From assembly GCA_963205165.1 (NCBI GenBank), contig CAUJJX010000301.1:1-38994 (forward strand): 38,994 bases of DNA, written 5' to 3'. The notes under the pieces were generated by a model, which saw only the letters and a list, made by a program, of their open reading frames with translations, ran no database searches and was not told the origin of the DNA. The stretch's first letter is position 1, and the number at the start of each line of letters is the position of its first letter. The position numbers and the translations under genes were made by a program. This document shows, one piece after another, positions 6,009 to 37,870 of this stretch. Origin of the DNA: Pseudomonadota bacterium. Its GTDB lineage: Bacteria; Pseudomonadota; Gammaproteobacteria; Burkholderiales; Ga0077523.

Positions 6009-7325
6009 TCACACCCGCCTCCCCACCAACCGAAACACCAGATTCCTCCCCGTCCCCTTGTAGACGACCTCCCGCGGTTCCTCGAACAGGTACCGGTCTG
6101 ACAGCCGCACGTAGGTCGCGCGGTCCACGAGGATCGTCGCCGGGGCGGAGTCTTCCGTGACCCGCGCCGCGAGGTTCACGGTGTCGCCCCACACGTCGTA
6201 GCTCAGCCGCGTCGCGCCGATCACGCCGGCCACGGCCGGGCCGGTCGCGATGCCGACGTGGAAGGCCAGCGCGCGCTCGACCATCACCGGGTCGTTGCGG
6301 CACATCTCGTGGATGTCGAGCGCCATGTCGGCCATCGCCGCGACGTAGTCGTGGCCGCTGAACCCGAGGCCGCCGACGACCATGTACGCGTCTCCGACCG
6401 TCTTGATCTTCTCGAGCCCGTGCCGCGCGCAGAGATGGTCGAGGCGCGTGAAGACGTGGTTGAGGAATCCGATCACCTGCCGCGGTTCGAGCCGGCCCGA
6501 GAGGCGCGTGAAGTCGACGATGTCCGCGAACATCACGCAGATGTCGGCGTGGCCGTCGGCGATGATCGACTGCTCGCGCTTCAGCCGGTCGGCGACCCAC
6601 GCGGGCATCAGCGACGCGAGCAGCGCATCGGCCTTCGTGCGCTCGGCAACGAGCAGCGCGTGTTCGCGTGCGAGGTCGGCCTGCGCCTCGGACTTCTGCT
6701 GCGTGAACACCCGCAGGAGGTAGAACACGATCGCCGCGAGGATCGTCGCGTTGAGCACGAAGAACAGCGCGACGGTCCGGAGCGGCACCGACATCGTCCG
6801 CATCGGCACCGAGACCGATCCGGACGCATCGAAGAAATCGAACGCCGCCGACCCCGCCATCAGCACGATGAACGCCGCGAACCAGCGCAGCGATTCGCGC
6901 GGCCCCGCCACGACGAGCGCGCAGATCGGACCGAGCAGCGCGAGCAGCGCCACGCCGGACGACGCGAGGAAGTTGCCGATCGACCACTCGACCGCGAACG
7001 GCATCAGCAGGAACAGCGCGAGCTGCGCGAACCGGTAGCGGCGGAAGTCGCGCGTGCGCAGGAAATAGAACAGCAGCGCGGCGGACGCGACCTGGTAGCC
7101 GAGCGGCAGGCTCGTGGGCAACCGGACGCCCATCAGCCAGTAGACCGCGAGCCACACCGACGCGACGACATTGGTCAGCGCGGCCGTGAGCAGCAGGAAG
7201 GACTTGCGCAGCCGCAGCTCCGCATCGTCGTCGAGATCGAAGGCGGCGAGCCCGAGGCGCTCGAGCAGCGTGACGCGCGGACCCGCCGGCGGGCGGCGAT
7301 CGGACTTGTTGTTGGGCTTTGTCAT
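6009..7325 (-). CDS. Membrane-bound class III adenylate cyclase
   Basis: The 438-residue protein has a short hydrophilic N-terminus, about six transmembrane helices over residues 41-206, a short coiled segment (210-235) and a C-terminal class III cyclase domain (260-430). Metal aspartates D268 (FADIVDF) and D312 (TVGDAYM) are present. K308 and D377 (YDVWGD) are the adenine-selecting residues, and N384 and R388 complete transition-state binding, so it should make cAMP from ATP. The 6TM-cyclase layout is common in proteobacteria; the signal sensed by the membrane part is unknown. The gene stands alone: the gap to ilvE is non-coding and vapB lies downstream on the same strand. Confidence 0.92.
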
Positions 7326-17919: not shown

Positions 17920-18444
17920 TCAGGTGTCGTCGTCGGCCACGGTGCGGATCACGCGCCGGATCACGCCGGGCGAGAACCCGCGGTTCTGGAGATAGCGCCC
18001 CTGCCGGGCGTACTCCGCGGCGTCGGCAGGTGGCTGCGGAAACTTGCGGCGGAGCACAGCGAGCGCCTGGGCAGGTTCGTCGGCCTTCGCGGTGGCGATG
18101 ACCTCCTCGGAGTCGGCGGCCGGGACTCCGCGCATCGCGAGGTCACGGGCGAGCCGCAGCGGGCCGTGGCGCCCGGCCGCGCGGCGACCGAGCTGTTCGG
18201 CGACGCGGGCATCGGAGATGAAGCCGAGCCGTTCGAGATCGTCGAGGAGGGCGGGGATGTCGTCGCCCTCCTCCGCGTGGCGCTGGAGCTTGCGCGCCAG
18301 CTCGACGCGACCGTGGTCCCGGCGGGCGAGCAGGCCGAGCGCACGGTTGCGGAGGGAGATTCCACCTCCGGACGGGCGACCTCCGCCACTACCGGACAGG
18401 CGTCCATCGCCACTACCGGACAGACGCCCTCGGCCCCCGGTCAA
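17920..18444 (-). CDS. recX: RecX regulatory protein with Gly/Ser-rich N-terminal repeat
   Basis: RecX caps RecA filaments and limits RecA activity. The helical three-repeat core is clear from about residue 30: [21 protein letters not shown], then [13 protein letters not shown] and the end [14 protein letters not shown]. The start is uncertain. TTG 18444, overlapping the recA stop (ATTGA), is the best in-frame choice and gives 174 residues. Between it and the core lies a low-complexity repeat ([23 protein letters not shown]) encoded by a 24-bp tandem repeat, which I would not expect in RecX. If translation began later, the repeat would be untranslated spacer. Overlap with recA implies coupling. 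Confidence 0.88.
18363..18434. repeat. 24-bp tandem repeat, three units, in the recX 5' end
   Basis: Units start at 18363, 18387 and 18411. Units 2 and 3 share CACTACCGGACAG and unit 1 has CACCTCCGGACGG. The period of 24 keeps the recX frame and encodes an 8-residue Gly/Ser/Arg unit. Confidence 0.85.
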
Positions 18445-19463
18445 TCTTCCTCGGCCGTTTCTTCGGCGAGCGGCGCGACACCGACCGCTTCGCGGATCTT
18501 CTGCTCGATCTCGCGGGCGACGTCGGGGTGCGTCTTGAGGAACTCGCGGGCGTTGTCCTTGCCCTGGCCGATCTTCTCGCCGTTGTAGGCGTACCACGCA
18601 CCGGACTTGTCGACGAACTTGTTGATCACGCCCAGTTCGATGATCTCGCCCTCGCGGGAGATGCCCTCGCCGTAGAGGATGTCGAAGTCGGCGGTGCGGA
18701 ACGGCGGCGCGACCTTGTTCTTCACGACCTTGCAGCGGGTCTCGCTGCCGATGACTTCCTCGCCCTTCTTGATCGCGCCGGTGCGGCGGATGTCGATGCG
18801 GACCGACGCGTAGAACTTCAGCGCGTTGCCGCCGGTGGTCGTCTCGGGGTTGCCGAACATCACGCCGATCTTCATCCGGATCTGGTTGATGAAGATGACC
18901 ATCGTGTTCGAGCGCTTGATGTTGCCGGTCAGCTTGCGCAGCGCCTGGCTCATGAGTCGCGCCTGGAGGCCGGGGAGCTGGTCGCCCATCTCGCCCTCGA
19001 TCTCGGCCTTCGGCGTCAGCGCCGCGACCGAGTCGATCACCACGATGTCGACGGAGCCCGAGCGAACGAGCATGTCGGCGATCTCGAGGGCCTGTTCGCC
19101 GTTGTCGGGCTGGGAGATCAGGAGGTCTTCGACCTTAACGCCGAGCTTGCGGGCGTACTGCGGATCGAGTGCGTGCTCGGCGTCGATGAAGGCCGCCGTG
19201 CCGCCGACCTTCTGGGCCTCGGCGATGACCTGGAGCGTGAGCGTCGTCTTGCCGGAGGACTCCGGACCGTAGATCTCGATGATCCGGCCGCGCGGGAAGC
19301 CGCCGATGCCGAGCGCCAGATCGAGGCCCAGCGAGCCCGTCGAGATGACCTGGATGTCCTGGCTCACGTCGTTCTCGCCGAGCCGCATGATGGAACCCTT
19401 GCCGAACTGCTTCTCGATCTGCGAGAGGGCCGCAGCCAGCGCCTTGCTCTTGTTGTCGTCCAT
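18441..19463 (-). CDS. recA: Recombinase RecA
   Basis: The 340-residue recombinase forms filaments on ssDNA, drives strand exchange and promotes LexA self-cleavage in the SOS response. Walker A is GPESSGKT (66-73), Walker B lies in [12 protein letters not shown], and DNA-binding loops L1 ([20 protein letters not shown]) and L2 ([18 protein letters not shown]) are standard. The C-terminus is acidic (EETAEED), which normally tempers DNA binding. ATG 19463 has GGAAAA just upstream. A degenerate SOS-box-like site overlaps the likely -10 (19498-19513). It diverges from the kinase-HDOD gene and is followed by recX. Confidence 0.99.
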
Positions 19464-19623: not shown

Positions 19624-22041
19624 ATGTCAGCGCCCATGGCATCCGCTCCCCAGACCACCAGAAACATCGGCCGATTCGAGGTCGTCCAGCCGCTCGGGCG
19701 AGGCATGCAGGGCAGCGTCTGGCTCGCGCACGACCCGCAGCTGAAGCGCGAGGTCGCGATCAAGACGATCGACGTCGACGCCAGCACGAACCCGGCAGCC
19801 GTCCGCACGCTCCTGGAAGAAGCCGTGATGGCGAGCCGCCTCGTCCACCCCGGCCTCGTGACCCTATTCGACGCCGGCCGCGACGGCGACAAGCCCTACC
19901 TCGTCTTCGAGTACGTCCCCGGACGCACCCTCGCGACCGTCATCCGCGACGACGGGCGCATCGCGCCGCTCGCTGCCGCGCGCTACACGCTCCAGATGCT
20001 CCAGGCCGTCGAGTTCGCGCACCGCAAGGGCGTCGTGCACCGCGACCTGAAGCCGGCGAACGTGATGATCGCGGCCGACGACATCGCCCGGATCATGGAC
20101 TTCGGCATCGCGTCGCTCGTCTCGGGCGTCGATCCGGCGGACACCGGCTTCCACGGCACGCCCGCCTACACGGCGCCCGAGTACGTGACGAGCCGCGAGT
20201 TCTCGCCGCGCTCCGACGTGTTCTCGATCGGCCTCATGCTCCACGAGATGCTGACCGGCGAACCGGCGATCAGCGGTTCGACCGTCTTCGAGGTCCTCCA
20301 CAAGATCGCGAACGTCCCGTTCACGCCGCCGTCCGGGAAGGCTGCCGAGGTGGACGAAGTGCTGGACGGCATCGTGATGCGCGCGCTCGCGAAGGACCCC
20401 ACGCTGCGCTACGCCTCGGCCCAGGAGATGGCGGATGCCATCGAGGACTACCTGCGCCCGGCGAAGACCGCGACCGCGATCGAGCATGACGGCAGCGACG
20501 GCACGCTCGAGTTCCTGCTGCGCCGCATCCGGCTGAAGAACGATTTCCCCGCGCTGTCGAACACGATCACGTCGGTGACGAAGGCGATCTCGGCCGACAA
20601 GCAGGGGCTCGCCACGCTCGCGAGCGCGATCCTCAAGGACTTCGCGATCACCAACAAGCTGCTGAAGCTCGTGAACTCGGCGCACTACGGCCAGCTCCGC
20701 GGCGGCGTGTCGACCGTGACCCGCGCGATCATGGTGCTCGGCTTCGACCAGGTCCGGTCGATGGCGGTCGGGCTCATGCTGTTCGATCACCTGCAGAACC
20801 GCTCGCAGGCGGCCGGCCTCCGTGACGAGATCATCGCGGGCTACTTCGGCGCCCTCCTCGCACGGTCGCTCGCGACGCCCGCGGGCGTGCGCGACAGCGA
20901 GGAAGCCTTCATCGCCGCGCTGTTCCACAACCTCGGGCGCCTGCTCACCGCGTTCTACTTCCACGAGGAACACGCGGAGATCATGAAGAGCCTGCAGCAG
21001 GGCGGCGACGAACGCGAGGTCGCGATCGCGCTGCTCGGTTCGCCGCTCGACGAACTCGGCGCCGGTGTCGCCCGGAGCTGGAAGTTCCCCGAGGAAATAA
21101 TCGCGAGCATGCAGCCCGTCGTCGGCAAGACGCTCGAACCGCCGCCGACCGAGGCCGAGCGGATGCGCATGCTCGCGAGCCTGGTCCGCGGGATCGTCGA
21201 CGCCGTGCGCTTCACGCCCGACCAGCTCCGCGGCCGCAAGGTCCTCGAGATCGAGCAGCGCTTCGCGCCGGCGCTCGGCGTGAACCAGAGCCAGATCCTG
21301 ACGGCCGTCGCGAAGGCCGTGCGCGACGTGTCCGCCGACGCGTCGGTGCTCGGCATGAAGACCGGCGCCAGCCCGTTCTTCGCGCGCGCCGTCGCGTGGA
21401 CGCAGCACCTGTCCGGCGACCGCGTCCCGGACGAGGCGCAGAACACGATTGCCGGCACCGTGCTGGACAGCAGCGAACTGCTCGTCGAGAGCGAGGCGAC
21501 CGACGGCACGGCGATCGCGGCGAACCGCAAGGCCGCGCTGACGGCCGGCATCCAGGACATCACGAATGTGCTGGTCGGCAAGTATCAGATGAACGACGTC
21601 CTGCGGATGGTCGTCGAGACGATGTACCGCGGCGCCGGCTTCTCGCGCGTGCTGCTGCTGATCCGGGACGCCGCGAGCAACTCGCTCAAGACGCGCATGG
21701 GTCTCGGCACCGACATCGAATCGATCCTGCGCAAGGGCTTCTCGATCCCGCTGGCACCGGCGAAGGACGTCTTCCACGCCGTGCTGGCTCAGGGAATCGA
21801 CCTCTTCATCGAGGACGCGAACAGCCCGAAGGTGCGTGACCACGTCCCGCGCTGGTACCGGCAGTCGCTGAACGCGCATTCGTTCGCGCTGTTCCCGGTG
21901 ATGGTCGGCAAGACGTCCGTCGCGCTGCTGTACGGCGACAGCCCGGATCCGGGCCAGCTCGCGTTCACTCCCGAGGAGCTGTCGCTCCTGAAGACCCTGC
22001 GGAACCAGGCCGTCATGGCGATCCGCGCACCCTCCAGCTGA
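19624..22041 (+). CDS. Ser/Thr protein kinase-HDOD-GAF fusion
   Basis: The 805-residue protein has three parts. Residues about 18-275 are a Hanks-type kinase with the glycine loop GRGMQGSV, ATP lysine K47 (VAIKTI), HRDLKPAN (H139-R140-D141), DFG at 159-161 and APE in the activation segment; all catalytic residues are intact. Residues about 290-490 are an HDOD domain (LLKLVNSAHYGQLRGG, VLGFDQVRSM, AALFHNLGRLL). Residues about 640-800 are a GAF domain (VLRMVVETMYRGAGFSRVLLLIRD start). No membrane segment is seen, so it is probably cytosolic. The GAF domain may sense a small ligand, and HDOD domains mediate protein interactions. It begins at ATG 19624 (19636 also possible) and is followed after 10 bases by a cyclase-FHA gene, suggesting a shared pathway. 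Confidence 0.93.
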   Translation: MSAPMASAPQTTRNIGRFEVVQPLGRGMQGSVWLAHDPQLKREVAIKTIDVDASTNPAAVRTLLEEAVMASRLVHPGLVTLFDAGRDGDKPYLVFEYVPGRTLATVIRDDGRIAPLAAARYTLQMLQAVEFAHRKGVVHRDLKPANVMIAADDIARIMDFGIASLVSGVDPADTGFHGTPAYTAPEYVTSREFSPRSDVFSIGLMLHEMLTGEPAISGSTVFEVLHKIANVPFTPPSGKAAEVDEVLDGIVMRALAKDPTLRYASAQEMADAIEDYLRPAKTATAIEHDGSDGTLEFLLRRIRLKNDFPALSNTITSVTKAISADKQGLATLASAILKDFAITNKLLKLVNSAHYGQLRGGVSTVTRAIMVLGFDQVRSMAVGLMLFDHLQNRSQAAGLRDEIIAGYFGALLARSLATPAGVRDSEEAFIAALFHNLGRLLTAFYFHEEHAEIMKSLQQGGDEREVAIALLGSPLDELGAGVARSWKFPEEIIASMQPVVGKTLEPPPTEAERMRMLASLVRGIVDAVRFTPDQLRGRKVLEIEQRFAPALGVNQSQILTAVAKAVRDVSADASVLGMKTGASPFFARAVAWTQHLSGDRVPDEAQNTIAGTVLDSSELLVESEATDGTAIAANRKAALTAGIQDITNVLVGKYQMNDVLRMVVETMYRGAGFSRVLLLIRDAASNSLKTRMGLGTDIESILRKGFSIPLAPAKDVFHAVLAQGIDLFIEDANSPKVRDHVPRWYRQSLNAHSFALFPVMVGKTSVALLYGDSPDPGQLAFTPEELSLLKTLRNQAVMAIRAPSS

Positions 22042-22051
22042 GAGCACCGGC

Positions 22052-22957
22052 ATGACTGCAGACGTGGCGACCTTGGATACGACCCGACCGATGACGGTCC
22101 TGTTCGTCGATGTGGCGGGCAGTACCCGACTGTACGAGACGCTCGGCGACGACGAGGCGCTGCGACGCGTCCGGGCCTGCCTCGATGTCGCGACGGAGGC
22201 CACGACCGAGCACGGTGGCACCGTCGTGAAGAACATCGGCGACGAGCTGCTGTGCACCTTCCCGGACAGCGGGTCCGCGCTGCTCGCGGCGTGCGCCATG
22301 CAGTCGCTGGTGCGCGCGCTGCCCGAGACCGGCGGCATCCGGAACATGTTCCGGATCGGCTTCCAGCACGGGCCTGTCCTGATGCGCGACGGCGATGCCT
22401 TCGGGGACACCGTGAACGTGGCGGCCCGCATCGTGGCCCTCGCCGCGGCGGGACAGATCCTCGTGGGCAGCGACGCGTGCGACACACTCCCGTCGCATCT
22501 AAAGTTCGGCATCCGGCCGCTCGGGCAGGCGACGATCCGCGGCCGCAGCGCCGAGGTGCGGCTCCACGAGATCGTGTGGGACATGGCGGCCGACCTGACG
22601 CAGGTCGCCGACGGCGCGACGCTCCGGGCACTGCCCAAGGCGCTGAGCATCGAACTCCAGTTCGGCACGCTCACGTGGCGCATCGAGCGCGGCGCCATCG
22701 CGATCGGCCGGGACCCCGGCAACGAGGTGGTACTGTCGACGAAACGTGCGTCGCGCAGCCACGCGCGCATCGAGGCCCGCGACGGCCGGTTCGTGCTGCG
22801 CGATTCGAGCACCAACGGGACCTTCGTCCAGCCCGCCGAGGGCGACGGGCGCCAGATCTGCCGCGACGAGACCGAACTCACCGGCAGCGGCTGCATCTAC
22901 TTCGGACACAAGCCCACCGACGAGGGTGTCGAGGGGATGACCTTCGCCATCGGGTGA
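22052..22957 (+). CDS. Soluble class III adenylate cyclase-FHA fusion
   Basis: The 301-residue protein joins an N-terminal class III cyclase (about 12-185) to a C-terminal FHA domain (about 205-295). Metal aspartates are D20 (FVDVAGST) and D64 (NIGDELL). K60 and the Asp in DAFGDTVN are adenine-selecting, and the VNVAAR Asn and Arg complete the site, so cAMP synthesis is expected. The FHA part has GRDPGNEV (R220), SRSHARIE and SSTNGTFV, the residues that read phosphothreonine. Known biology: FHA domains dock onto phosphorylated kinases or their substrates. Inference: the kinase encoded 10 bases upstream supplies that phosphothreonine and so positions or controls this cyclase. Confidence 0.93.
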   Translation: MTADVATLDTTRPMTVLFVDVAGSTRLYETLGDDEALRRVRACLDVATEATTEHGGTVVKNIGDELLCTFPDSGSALLAACAMQSLVRALPETGGIRNMFRIGFQHGPVLMRDGDAFGDTVNVAARIVALAAAGQILVGSDACDTLPSHLKFGIRPLGQATIRGRSAEVRLHEIVWDMAADLTQVADGATLRALPKALSIELQFGTLTWRIERGAIAIGRDPGNEVVLSTKRASRSHARIEARDGRFVLRDSSTNGTFVQPAEGDGRQICRDETELTGSGCIYFGHKPTDEGVEGMTFAIG

Positions 22958-22983
22958 CGCCCGCACCGGGAGCATCTCGCACC

Positions 22984-23193
22984 ATGCTCGACCTGCTGAC
23001 CGACCTGCTGTGGTGGTGCACCGACCGCACATGGCGCGGTCTGCGGATGCTGTCCGGCGACGACGCTTACGACCGCTATCTCGCGAATCTGGAGCGTCGC
23101 GACGACGGCACTACCCCGATCTCGCGCGGCGCCTTCCACGCGCAACAGCTCGACCGCAAATGGGAGCGCATCTTCGGCTGCGGCCGGGGCTGA
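22984..23193 (+). CDS. YbdD/YjiX-like small protein, variant C-terminus
   Basis: The 69-residue protein matches the YbdD/YjiX (DUF466) family: WRGLRMLSGDDAYDRYLANLERR, then a central SRGAFHAQQLDRKWERI. The usual ending is NRCC, present in the second family member at 37691-37870; here it is FGCGRG, with one cysteine left. It also has a longer, tryptophan-rich N-terminus (LLTDLLWWCTDRTW). Family members normally sit beside cstA/yjiY-type pyruvate transporters, but this copy is the third gene of the kinase/cyclase operon, 26 bases after the cyclase stop. Function unknown. Confidence 0.85.
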   Translation: MLDLLTDLLWWCTDRTWRGLRMLSGDDAYDRYLANLERRDDGTTPISRGAFHAQQLDRKWERIFGCGRG

Positions 23194-23196
23194 AGC

Positions 23197-23697
23197 TCAG
23201 GCGCCGGCCGGCGCCTCGCACAGCCGGATGACCCCGGCGAGCGCCTCGATCACCGTCTGCCGCCGCACGGCATCGCGATCACCCGCGAACCGGTACGTGC
23301 GCGCCTCGCGCGAACCGTCGCGCAGGCCCCATCCGATGCAGACCATCCCGACGGGCTTGGTGAGCGTGCCGCCCGTCGGCCCCGCGACACCGCTCACCGC
23401 GACGGCGATGTCCGATCGCAAGGCCCGCAGCGTGCCGTCGACCATCTCGAGCACCGTCGCTTCCGACACGGCACCGTGACGCAGCAGCGTCTCGGGCGAC
23501 ACGCCGAGCGCGGTCTGCTTCACGGCATTGCTGTACGTGATGAATCCGCCGTCGTACCAGCGGGAGCTGCCGGCGACCATCGTGACGGCGGCGCCGATCC
23601 AGCCGCCCGTGCACGATTCGGCGGTGGCGAGCACCGCACCGCGCGATACGAGCGCTGCACCGGTGCGTTCGGCGAGTGCGAGAAGTTCGGTATCCAT
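23197..23697 (-). CDS. pncC: CinA-type nicotinamide-nucleotide amidase
   Basis: The 166-residue protein is the stand-alone C-terminal CinA domain (PncC), which deamidates nicotinamide mononucleotide to nicotinate mononucleotide in pyridine nucleotide recycling. Seen: TAESCTGGWIGAAVT, the FITYSNAVK segment, and VSGVAGPTGGTLTKPVG. The N-terminal molybdopterin-like domain of long CinA proteins is absent, as usual in E. coli-type PncC. It starts 2 bases after the pgpA stop. Its stop lies 3 bases from the end of the convergent YbdD-like gene, leaving almost no room for a terminator. Confidence 0.94.
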   Translation of the reverse strand: MDTELLALAERTGAALVSRGAVLATAESCTGGWIGAAVTMVAGSSRWYDGGFITYSNAVKQTALGVSPETLLRHGAVSEATVLEMVDGTLRALRSDIAVAVSGVAGPTGGTLTKPVGMVCIGWGLRDGSREARTYRFAGDRDAVRRQTVIEALAGVIRLCEAPAGA

Positions 23698-23699
23698 GT

Positions 23700-24212
23700 T
23701 CAGAGTACGAGCGCCTTCCAGGCCGCGAGGACGAGCAACGTGTAGAGGGCCGCGACGAGATCGTCGAGCATGACGCCGAAGCCGCCGCCGACCGTGGCGT
23801 CGAGGTGGCGGATGTGCAGCGGCTTCCAGATATCGAACAGCCGGAACAGCAGGAAGCCCGCGACCTGCCAGACGAGCGTCTGCGGAATCATGAACAGCAC
23901 GATCATGAACGCGACGATCTCGTCGACGACGATGCCGCCGTGGTCGTGCACGCCGAGCGCGCGGCTCGTGCGCTCGCACGTCCAGATGCCGCCGAGGAAG
24001 GCCCCGACGAGCAGCAGCGCGTACCACCCGTCGGACAGCCGCGGATACGTGATCGCGAAGATCGGGATCGCCACGAGCGTGCCGAGCGTGCCGGGGCCGA
24101 ACCGCGACAGGCCGGAACCGAATCCGAACGCGATCAGGTGTGCCGGATGCGACAGCAGGAAGCGCAGGCTCGGACGCCGCGGTGGACGCATGTGGTACGT
24201 GTCGGCGCTCAT
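23700..24212 (-). CDS. pgpA: Phosphatidylglycerophosphatase A
   Basis: The 170-residue inner-membrane enzyme dephosphorylates phosphatidylglycerol phosphate to phosphatidylglycerol. Family motifs are GFGSGLSRFGPGTLGTL near the N-terminus, HDHGGIVVDEIVAF, and RLFDIWKPLHIRHLD. Three to four hydrophobic helices are evident. Its ATG overlaps the thiL stop by 4 bases, and thiL-pgpA-cinA is a common proteobacterial operon. Confidence 0.96.
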   Translation of the reverse strand: MSADTYHMRPPRRPSLRFLLSHPAHLIAFGFGSGLSRFGPGTLGTLVAIPIFAITYPRLSDGWYALLLVGAFLGGIWTCERTSRALGVHDHGGIVVDEIVAFMIVLFMIPQTLVWQVAGFLLFRLFDIWKPLHIRHLDATVGGGFGVMLDDLVAALYTLLVLAAWKALVL

Positions 24213-35227: not shown

Positions 35228-35535
35228 GACGGCGGCCGGCTCGGGGAAAAGGGGCGGGAGTTTACCACCGCCCCCCGCGCGCGCCCCGGGTTCGCGGGCC
35301 AAGTTTGTTGCGGCGCGATGACCCCGCATGGTTCGTCCCGGCCCCCGCCGCGTCGGCCCGCAGGCACGGACGCACACCGTCCGCATCGCTTCGCCGCGGG
35401 AAGTCCATGACGTATGATCGCCCGCCGGTTCACGGCACCGGGCGAATGCCCCGCGCCGCCGTCCCCGCAAAAGCACGCAGCCCGGTCATCGAGGCACGCG
35501 GCCCACGAAGAAAGCACGCTGGAGGAACGTCCGAA
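35228..35535. other. Divergent regulatory gap between glyA and cstA
   Basis: These 308 GC-rich bases hold no credible gene. They should contain the glyA promoter (a TAAACT lies near 35258-35263 on the minus strand, without a matching -35) and the cstA promoter at 35390-35418. GGAGG precedes cstA. I could not identify a CRP or other activator site. Confidence 0.6.
35390..35418 (+). promoter_or_regulatory. Candidate sigma-70 promoter of cstA
   Basis: TTCGCC (35390-35395), a 17-base spacer and TATGAT (35413-35418). The -10 has five of six consensus bases and the -35 has three. It would give a leader of about 110 bases. Confidence 0.45.
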
Positions 35536-37599
35536 ATGCCGAACGCCTTGTCGAAACTCATCTGGGTGGCCATCGCGCTGCTCGGCGCGTCCGCCATCGG
35601 CGGCATCGCGATACACCGGGGCGAGCAGATCAACGCGCTCTGGTTCATCGCCGCGGCCGTCTGCACGTACCTGATCGGTTACCGGTTCTACAGCGCCTGG
35701 ATCTGCGCGAAGGTCCTCGTGCTCGACGAGACCCGCGCGACGCCGGCCGAGCGCTTCAACAACGGCCGCGACTTCATCCCCACGAACAAGTGGGTCGCCT
35801 TCGGTCACCACTTCGCCGCCATCGCGGGCCCCGGGCCGCTGATCGGACCGACGCTCGCGATGCAGTTCGGCTACCTGCCCGGCACGCTCTGGATCCTCGC
35901 GGGTTCCGTGCTCGGCGGCTGCGTCCAGGACATGGTCACGATGTTCTGCTCCACGCGCCGCGACGGCCGCTCGCTCGGCCAGATGGCGAAGGACGAACTC
36001 GGTCCCGTCGGCGGCTGGGCCGCGCTGATCGGCTCGCTGATGATCATCATCATCCTGATCGCCGTGCTGGGTCTCGTCATCGTGAAGGCCATGAAGCACA
36101 GCCCCTGGGCGACCGCGACGGTCCTCGGGACGATCCCGGTGGCCATGCTGATCGGCCTCTACATGCGCGGGATCCGCCCCGGCAAGGTGCTCGAAGGCTC
36201 CCTGATCGGCATCGCGCTCCTGCTCGTCTGCGTCTGGGGCGGCGGCTGGGTGAACGGTTCCGCGGAATTCCGCGGCATGTTCGACTGGGACGACATGACC
36301 TGCGCCTGGTTCGTCATGATCTACGGCTTCTCGGCGGCGGCACTGCCCGTGTGGCTGCTGCTCGCGCCGCGCGACTACCTCTCGACCTTCCTGAAGCTCG
36401 GCGTCGTCTTCATGCTCGCCGCCGCGATCCTGATCTGGTCGCCGACCGTGAAGATGCCGGCCATCACGCAGTTCGTCGACGGCACCGGCCCGATCTTCAA
36501 GGGCACGCTGTTCCCGTTCGTCTTCATCACGATCGCGTGCGGTGCGATCTCCGGCTTCCACGCGCTCGTGTCGTCCGGCACGACGCCGAAGCTGCTCGCG
36601 AACGAACGCGAGATCCGCATGATCGGATACGGCAGCATGGCCCTCGAATCCTTCGTGGCCATCATGGCCGTGATCGCCGCGACGGTGATGGAGCCCGGCA
36701 TCTACTTCGCGATCAACAGCCCCCCCGGTGTCGTCGGCAAGGAAGCCGCCGATGCCGTCGCGATGATCACGTCTTGGGGCTTCCCGGTGACGGTCGAGCA
36801 GATGAGCACGCTCGCCGCCGGCATGGGTGAATCGACGCTCTTCGGCCGGGTCGGCGGCGCGCCGTCGCTCGCCGTGGGCATGGCCACGATCTTCAGCAGC
36901 ACGTTCGGCGGCAACCTCCTCGACATGTGGTACCACTTCGCGATCATGTTCGAGGTGCTGTTCATCCTGACGACGCTCGACGCCGGCACGCGCGTCGGCC
37001 GCTTCATGCTCCAGGACCTCATCAAGCACGTGTCGCCGGCGCTGGGCAATGTGTCGTCGTACCCCGCGACCGTCGTGTCGAGCCTCGTGTTCGTCGGTGC
37101 GTGGGGCTACTTCCTCGTGCAGGGCGTCAAGGATCCGCTCGGCGGCGTGAACATCCTCTGGCCGCTCTTCGGCATCTCGAACCAGCTGCTCGCGGGCATC
37201 GCGCTGACCGTCGCCACCGGCATCATCATCAAGATGGGCAAGGTGCGGTACTCGTGGGTGACCGGCCTGCCGCTCACGTGGCTCGCGGTCGTCTGCACGA
37301 GCGCCGCCGTCGAGAAGGTGTTCAGCAGCAACCCGGCCGTCGGCTTCCTGGCCGGCGCGAACAAGCTGGCCGCCGATCTCGCCGCGGGCGTGCTGTCGCC
37401 GGAGAAGGCAGCGGCCGCACCGTCGCTGATCCTCGGCCAGCGGATCGACGCGGCGCTCGCGCTGCTGTTCGCCGCGATCCTCTGGATCGTGATCTTCGAC
37501 ATGATCCGCATGAGCCGCCGCTTCCTCGCCGGCAAGCCCGTCCAGCCGCTGTCGGAATCGGAACACGTGACCACGCAGCTCGCCTGGGCGCGCGACTGA
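35536..37599 (+). CDS. cstA: CstA-family carbon starvation / pyruvate transporter
   Basis: The 687-residue inner-membrane protein has many hydrophobic helices and the CstA signatures HFAAIAGPGPLIGPTLA, SVLGGCVQDMVTMF, CGAISGFHALVSSGTTPK and LFGISNQLLAGIAL. E. coli CstA and BtsT take up pyruvate, and CstA is also tied to peptide use in starvation; exact substrate here is inferred. ATG 35536 follows GGAGG. The following ybdD gene, 91 bases downstream, is its normal partner. Confidence 0.95.
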   Translation: MPNALSKLIWVAIALLGASAIGGIAIHRGEQINALWFIAAAVCTYLIGYRFYSAWICAKVLVLDETRATPAERFNNGRDFIPTNKWVAFGHHFAAIAGPGPLIGPTLAMQFGYLPGTLWILAGSVLGGCVQDMVTMFCSTRRDGRSLGQMAKDELGPVGGWAALIGSLMIIIILIAVLGLVIVKAMKHSPWATATVLGTIPVAMLIGLYMRGIRPGKVLEGSLIGIALLLVCVWGGGWVNGSAEFRGMFDWDDMTCAWFVMIYGFSAAALPVWLLLAPRDYLSTFLKLGVVFMLAAAILIWSPTVKMPAITQFVDGTGPIFKGTLFPFVFITIACGAISGFHALVSSGTTPKLLANEREIRMIGYGSMALESFVAIMAVIAATVMEPGIYFAINSPPGVVGKEAADAVAMITSWGFPVTVEQMSTLAAGMGESTLFGRVGGAPSLAVGMATIFSSTFGGNLLDMWYHFAIMFEVLFILTTLDAGTRVGRFMLQDLIKHVSPALGNVSSYPATVVSSLVFVGAWGYFLVQGVKDPLGGVNILWPLFGISNQLLAGIALTVATGIIIKMGKVRYSWVTGLPLTWLAVVCTSAAVEKVFSSNPAVGFLAGANKLAADLAAGVLSPEKAAAAPSLILGQRIDAALALLFAAILWIVIFDMIRMSRRFLAGKPVQPLSESEHVTTQLAWARD

Positions 37600-37690: not shown

Positions 37691-37870
37691 ATGCGCGACG
37701 ACCTGAAGAAACTCTGGGATTTCATGCGCGAGGTGACCGGCGACGACGCCTACGAGCGCTACCTCGCCCGCCATCGCGAGACCCATCCGGAAGTCCCGCC
37801 GCTCGCCGAGAAGGAGTTCTTCGCGTCGGAGCAGGAGCGGAAATGGAGCGGGATCAACCGCTGCTGCTGA
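37691..37870 (+). CDS. ybdD: YbdD/YjiX-family small protein
   Basis: This 59-residue frame encodes a complete YbdD/YjiX (DUF466) protein: WDFMREVTGDDAYERYLARHR, then an ending EQERKWSGINRCC with the family cysteine pair. Members are nearly always next to cstA-type transporters and the function is unsettled. It is the canonical copy; a divergent paralogue lies at 22984-23193. Confidence 0.93.
   Translation: MRDDLKKLWDFMREVTGDDAYERYLARHRETHPEVPPLAEKEFFASEQERKWSGINRCC

Follow-up and report, generated by a model that had tools for sequence, protein, structure and literature searches.

A kinase-HDOD-GAF gene paired with a cyclase-FHA gene, and a conserved hinge threonine as a candidate phospho-switch of cAMP synthesis

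Bacterial Ser/Thr kinases and cyclic AMP (cAMP) are usually studied apart. Ser/Thr kinases and FHA proteins are partners in the PpkA-PppA-Fha threonine phosphorylation pathway of type VI secretion, and GarA and OdhI are FHA proteins that carry a phosphoacceptor of their own, have no cyclase and act on metabolic enzymes. An FHA domain fused to a cyclase occurs in DgcB of Bdellovibrio bacteriovorus, where it binds the protein's own phosphorylated peptide and activates the fused cyclase; that study did not identify the kinase (PMC6733907). We analyzed contig C301 (the window, 38,994 nucleotides) of a fragmented Burkholderiales genome (3.9 Mb, 409 contigs, 92% complete), which encodes a Hanks-type kinase-HDOD-GAF protein (KIN) and, after an intergenic gap of 10 bases on the same strand, a class III cyclase-FHA protein (CYC). 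We propose, with a probability of roughly 0.47 based on sequence conservation and analogy, that KIN controls CYC by phosphorylating Thr183 in its hinge, that the FHA domain binds this residue and that cAMP synthesis is thereby switched, most likely on. The phosphate is placed on Thr183 because a lone conserved Thr lies in a floppy hinge beside the FHA domain, because FHA-cyclases frequently have kinase neighbors and because DgcB offers a precedent. This phospho-site hypothesis is sharper than the original prediction, made by a model from the letters of the window, in which an autophosphorylated kinase or its target would recruit and control the cyclase; the strongest sequence signal for a phosphate site points to the hinge Thr of CYC itself, rather than to KIN or some unspecified target. 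The pair and the genes that frame it are arranged as follows.

18441..19463, minus strand: recA (PF00154), left border of the conserved slot
19624..22041, plus strand: KIN, Hanks-type kinase-HDOD-GAF protein, 805 residues (Pfam)
19675..20424, plus strand: kinase domain of KIN, residues 18-267 (PF00069, E 2.1e-49)
20548..21111, plus strand: HDOD domain of KIN, residues 309-496 (PF08668, E 7.5e-35)
21415..21510, plus strand: predicted disordered linker of KIN, residues 598-629, with Thr612 (predicted local distance difference test score, pLDDT, <50)
21592..22023, plus strand: GAF domain of KIN, residues 657-800 (PF01590, E 6e-9)
22052..22957, plus strand: CYC, class III cyclase-FHA protein, 301 residues (Pfam, PDB relatives)
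22082..22549, plus strand: cyclase catalytic domain of CYC (Guanylate_cyc), residues 11-166 (PF00211, E 4.5e-12)
22598..22600, plus strand: Thr183 codon, within the hinge predicted to be disordered; predicted phospho-switch (conservation in FHA-cyclases)
22700..22873, plus strand: FHA domain of CYC, residues 217-274 (PF00498, E 2.5e-12)
22984..23193, plus strand: Sel_put (YbdD/YjiX-like) small protein, 69 residues (PF04328)
23197..23700, minus strand: cinA-type gene (PF02464), right border of the conserved slot

Relatives of CYC were drawn from at least 496 candidate stretches, of which 80 were kept, and the comparison comprised 103 distinct rows, the window's own included, with 782,605 bases of flank; matches spanning fewer than 200 residues or yielding fewer than 240 amino acids were excluded. 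Among the listed matches such FHA-cyclases were widespread, occurring in Betaproteobacteria, Gammaproteobacteria, Desulfobacterales and others. D20, K60, D64, N122 and R126 were present in 103 of 103 rows and D115 in 102; we take D20 and D64 to be the metal-binding Asp residues, N122 and R126 the transition-state residues, and K60 and D115 the adenine (base-selecting) pair. CYC thus has, by sequence, the residues of a class III adenylate cyclase, and its predicted product is cAMP because the Lys/Asp base-selecting pair is present. G219, R220, S234, N255 and G256 of the FHA domain were likewise kept in all 103 rows and H237 in 102, and they form the Gly-Arg, Ser-x-x-His and Asn-Gly motifs of a putative phosphothreonine reader, a set named in PMC1262709. 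The cyclase-FHA gene of the original prediction is confirmed in both its position and its key residues. The AlphaFold2 model of CYC was good (pLDDT 85), with Ma1120 and Rv1900c as the nearest folds to its cyclase domain, and 3mr7 and Ma1120 led its PDB relatives by sequence.

Within this model the hinge, residues 181-196, has a pLDDT below 50 and is predicted to be disordered. The Thr183 column held Thr in 100 of the 103 FHA-cyclases (entropy 0.24 bits), compared with 1.8-3.7 bits for the other columns of 181-196, and by eye two of the three non-Thr rows (L161 and L113) carry Thr at a directly adjacent position. A protein search provided a second set of 120 listed proteins, in which P0004 is the window itself and P0011 its fragment; with P0011 and four more rows left out, the latter sharing at least 95% identity with previously included rows, Thr occupied the column in 110 of 114, and the other four have Thr one residue earlier in the alignment. 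Both sets together gave a hinge Thr in 210 of 217 FHA-cyclases. Thr183 lies seven residues after a nearly invariant Trp at the cyclase domain's end, and cyclases of a closely related FHA-free kind, which keep this Trp, had Thr at W+6 to W+8 in 2 of 118 cases (1 of 31 representatives at <70% identity). At seven FHA-free loci of the order that retain the Trp, W+7 was Ser twice and Leu five times (Thr 0/7). The Trp-anchored pattern found Thr in 97 of 114 when applied to the FHA-bearing second set; since it picks the wrong Trp in some proteins, the alignment count (110/114) is preferred. We rejected a DgcB-like N-terminal self-tail for CYC, as the short N-termini of eight cyclases of the genus share no conserved Thr by eye.

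Pfam equally confirmed the kinase-HDOD-GAF gene, whose catalytic motifs were present and conserved: K47, E66, H139, D141, K143, N146, D159, F160, P185 and E186 were invariant in 43 of 43 KIN homologues, and G161, R140 and A184 were kept in 42, 40 and 39. With a kinase fold, the catalytic Lys, HRD, Asn and DFG, KIN has the sequence attributes of a Hanks-type Ser/Thr kinase, and PknB was the closest relative of its kinase domain in fold comparison. Its structure model was fair (pLDDT 74.8), falling below 50 over residues 304-391, part of the HDOD domain, and over the linker 598-629. The GAF match fell below the cut-off in both of the KIN homologues scanned. Tandem kinase-HDOD-GAF genes were found in genomes G025 (L055 6193-11081) and G130 (L195 4614-8725, where the second copy is partial at the contig end).

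The pair recurred in 12 genomes, on the same strand in 12 of 12, with the kinase first, gaps of -8 to +45 bases and recA adjoining in 10; KIN homologues covering fewer than 700 residues were left out of this listing and of the linker motif count given below. Co-occurrence of the two architectures elsewhere, which the original prediction had proposed as a check, was thus borne out, and the pairs span at least three family codes (f1, f39, f19). Across 60 relatives, full-length KIN proteins were present in the window's own genome, 8 of 11 genus-mates and many other families. CYC directly follows KIN between recA and cinA in the own genome and in seven of those eight genus-mates, and the eighth, G010, has KIN elsewhere without CYC. 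Across 300 genomes of the order, 86 had KIN at E 1e-120 or better, in part as fragments, while 65 had a full FHA-cyclase (11 of 76 were dropped for a cyclase match without the FHA part) and 33 had both; the genes were side by side in nine of the 33 (seven of the genus, G093 and G156), a count from drafts in which split contigs may hide additional pairs. G156, from another family, kept the full recA-kinase-cyclase-cinA order, and G093, also from another family, kept recA-kinase-cyclase up to the point where its contig ends. The remaining three of the 12 pairs are G007, L096 and L126, the latter two being near-copies from Betaproteobacteria metagenome-assembled genomes of one study that sit outside the recA slot. 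All paired and slot kinases formed one 19-row group in the KIN tree (support 100), and in the cyclase tree 11 of the 12 paired rows clustered together with a single unpaired row among them (91/92), G156 lying apart on a long branch. From these sequences we read the pairing as old, with later losses.

FHA-cyclases were also close to kinases in general. A kinase domain lay within 5 kb in 49 of 103 rows, 45 of these with HRD and DFG inside the match, and where the flanks reached the full 5 kb (47 rows) 30 had one; chance expectation was 1.1 (285 kinases over 205 Mb in 60 genomes of the order), or 1.7 at the kinase density of FHA-cyclase genomes (17 genomes), a comparison in which related rows are non-independent and part of the loci lie outside the order. 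The kinase profile was strict, having been trained without the kinases that stand beside FHA-cyclases. A looser profile gave 60 of 103 and was dropped, as it also matched the far ends of neighboring kinase genes. The 49 kinase neighbors comprised 12 upstream on the same strand, which is the arrangement of the KIN pair, 30 downstream on the opposite strand and 7 downstream on the same strand. Methyloversatilis universalis (L066) is a named example of an FHA-cyclase that adjoins a different kinase.

Other genes also adjoin FHA-cyclases. ZorA-, ZorB- and ZorC-like defense genes lie near the FHA-cyclase at L075, L082, L090, L105, L118, L127, L132 and L134, and at L073 the ZorA-like cluster alone does so; these loci belong to Gallionella, Sideroxydans and other metagenome-assembled genomes, and one representative of each gene was examined with PADLOC, the rest being assigned by sequence cluster. 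At L079 (6134-7984, Gallionellaceae UBA2239) a Sel1-repeat protein with a weak, sub-cut-off Pfam kinase match stands directly upstream of the FHA-cyclase and is possibly a degenerate kinase.

A switch built on these parts would run in four steps, for which we infer the phosphorylation, the FHA binding, the sign of the response, the triggering signal and which kinase acts. To judge from domain type, the GAF part of KIN, and perhaps the HDOD part, would sense a signal, upon which KIN would autoactivate and phosphorylate Thr183 of the co-made CYC. Active sites of class III cyclases form between the two chains of a dimer. By analogy with DgcB, the FHA domain of the same or the partner chain would bind phosphorylated Thr183 and set the geometry of this dimer. 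The level of cAMP would then rise and be read by cyclic-nucleotide-binding (cNMP-binding) proteins, possibly including three cNMP-binding kinases of the genome. Activation is favored because DgcB, the nearest fused-cyclase precedent, is activated.

The same precedent bears on the converse, in which the FHA domain, once Thr183 is phosphorylated, would fold back and close CYC much as self-binding closes GarA and OdhI, so that KIN would lower cAMP. This reading shares the hinge-Thr evidence in full, and GarA and OdhI use self-peptides for steric occlusion in the account given by PMC6733907, but the activation of DgcB runs counter to it and we regard it as quite unlikely. Somewhat better placed, though still unlikely, is the docking put forward in the original prediction, whereby KIN autophosphorylates, the FHA domain docks on the resulting phosphothreonine and CYC is recruited and controlled. 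It would explain the conserved pair, and 6i2p was among the structural matches of the KIN kinase domain, a match that we take together with PknB-type kinases that have FHA partners such as GarA. The disordered linker of KIN offers possible docking sites, with a Thr-hydrophobic-Leu/Val motif in residues 598-632 of 33 of 83 homologues compared with 11.6 on average (at most 21) over 1000 shuffles, and behind the kinase domain of other FHA-cyclase-adjacent kinases an [DE]xT[LVIM] motif, which resembles the CYC hinge motif, occurred in 27 of 32 compared with 2 of 8 controls. These latter motifs fit docking, or a common recognition motif. However, both patterns were picked post hoc, 12 of 20 control kinases were dropped for having fewer than 60 residues behind the kinase domain, which left a countable tail in only 8, and the linker motif of KIN shows no significant association with FHA-cyclase presence (16/33 vs. 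17/50 kinases, p = 0.25). Docking also leaves Thr183 unexplained, although docking and a Thr183 switch could both hold.

It would also be conceivable that the two proteins are not coupled, the genes being merely co-transcribed after a widespread cyclase landed beside KIN, and the FHA domain reading another protein. The genes are apart in 24 of the 33 genomes of the order that have both, four genomes have KIN in the slot but no cyclase there, and 37 of the 49 near-kinase FHA-cyclases adjoin a kinase other than KIN, 30 of them convergently. All 12 pairs, drawn from several families, nevertheless agree in order and strand, FHA-cyclases in general are strongly close to kinases, and only two FHA proteins were found at E 1e-3 in the own genome, which is 92% complete; we consider an absence of coupling improbable.

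Several observations weigh against phosphorylation of Thr183 by KIN as the switch. Standing side by side is the minority arrangement of the two genes, and no kinase domain lay within 5 kb of 54 of the 103 FHA-cyclases, many of which have short flanks. The recA-kinase-cinA order occurs without a cyclase in between in G034, G161, G049 and G171; no full FHA-cyclase was found in the genomes of the first three, and that of G171 lies ~12 kb off, so KIN has other work too. A single clade of paired cyclases was neither shown nor rejected (approximately unbiased test, p-AU 0.092), and the pairing may have been gained repeatedly. Thr183 is conserved also where KIN is absent or distant and is therefore not tied to KIN in particular; a structural constraint could also account for its conservation. 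Finally, the FHA-free comparison set, with 3 clusters at 50% identity, is dominated by a single subfamily, so that the contrast in Thr between cyclases with and without FHA may reflect one evolutionary event.

Candidate readers of cAMP are present in the own genome, which has 16 cNMP-binding matches including a Crp-type regulator (L216). Three of its loci encode kinases with such a domain.

L210 84-1400, plus strand: Hanks kinase with cNMP-binding domain (PKA-like)
L211 1962-3257, plus strand: Hanks kinase with cNMP-binding domain (PKA-like)
L212 169-1869, minus strand: Hanks kinase with cNMP-binding domain (PKA-like)

All three retain by eye a Glu and an Arg that we take to be the motif of the phosphate-binding cassette. 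Relatives of the L211 kinase, called at E 1e-70 or better, were found in 59 of 65 genomes of the order with an FHA-cyclase compared with 29 of 235 without (Fisher 2.6e-33), and by family code in 15 of 16 compared with 9 of 34 (f1 to f50 taken as whole). A kinase-cAMP-kinase chain is possible on these grounds. The excess shrank to 15/17 vs. 6/14 (p = 0.018) among genomes with at least four kinases and to 14/16 vs. 4/7 (p = 0.14) among those with at least five, a weakening of the link that also counts against the last step of the proposed mechanism. More broadly, a cross-phylum family of FHA-cyclases might be gated by a phosphorylated hinge Thr, with cAMP read in Burkholderiales by PKA-like Hanks kinases in a kinase-cAMP-kinase cascade; we hold this generalization to be doubtful. 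Should the Thr183 switch be correct, Hanks kinases would write directly into cAMP through one residue, and because almost every FHA-cyclase compared retains the Thr, biochemistry on a single representative would be informative for hundreds of uncharacterized proteins. The co-occurring cNMP-binding kinases also prompt the question whether bacteria have a PKA-like cascade.

A second kinase-cyclase locus of the own genome lies on contig C20 (L214 1376-8009), where genes for a CHASE2-kinase, PP2C phosphatase, FHA protein and CHASE2-cyclase follow one another; the parts are alike, with the FHA domain unfused and a phosphatase added.

Around the pair, the span given in the original prediction, which ended at 23193, holds both genes but also the Sel_put gene (22984-23193), which it had passed over. 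Sel_put stands directly 3' of CYC in the own locus and in six of the seven other loci of the genus. We rejected it as a component of the system, since it was not found at the G156 pair locus and the CstA transporter in the window (35305-37599) has its own Sel_put copy (37691-37870), which makes that beside CYC the second in the same window and a likely passenger. The other direct neighbors of the pair are housekeeping genes. A promoter and terminator scan gave no signal above shuffles. A further class III cyclase (PF00211, 1.2e-45) is encoded on the minus strand of the window at 6027-6554, in an open frame of 444 codons.

Searches of the open-access literature, a scope outside which most subscription papers fall, listed no paper that by its title and abstract start describes a kinase-HDOD-GAF/cyclase-FHA pair. 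Compared with described systems, the pair matched neither the Pycsar defense cyclase, for which PADLOC PycC matches were weak and partial (best 1.2e-8), nor the type VI secretion threonine phosphorylation pathway, as no secretion gene was among the direct neighbors recA, alaS, cinA, pgpA and thiL; here, unlike in PpkA-PppA-Fha, the FHA domain is fused to a cyclase. TOMM_kin_cyc (TIGR03903) and Myxococcus Pkn2 resemble the pair in that one locus supplies both a Hanks kinase and a class III cyclase, but there the two form one chain, and the passages of PMC1262709 compared do not mention an FHA hinge, whereas KIN and CYC are two proteins. KIN and CYC scored 164 and 29.8 bits against a TIGR03903 cut-off of 705.75 and were not assigned to that family. 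CYC shares its catalytic fold and residues with the soluble class III adenylate cyclases Ma1120, Rv1900c and Rv1264, whose listed cyclase chains have no FHA domain in their descriptions, and KIN shares a PknB-like kinase domain with the PknB and PknG systems that act with GarA or OdhI. The closest likeness is to DgcB: CYC too is an FHA domain fused to a second-messenger cyclase, with a conserved Thr in a self-peptide predicted to be flexible. DgcB, as described in PMC6733907, has a GGDEF domain that makes cyclic di-GMP, an N-terminal FHA domain and an N-terminal tail peptide, whereas CYC has a class III catalytic domain (PF00211), a C-terminal FHA domain, its candidate site in the hinge and a kinase gene adjoining. 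As its catalytic domain is PF00211 and not GGDEF, CYC can work like DgcB but is no member of its family. By domain content the pair joins known kinds, the FHA-gated cyclase and the kinase-FHA pair.

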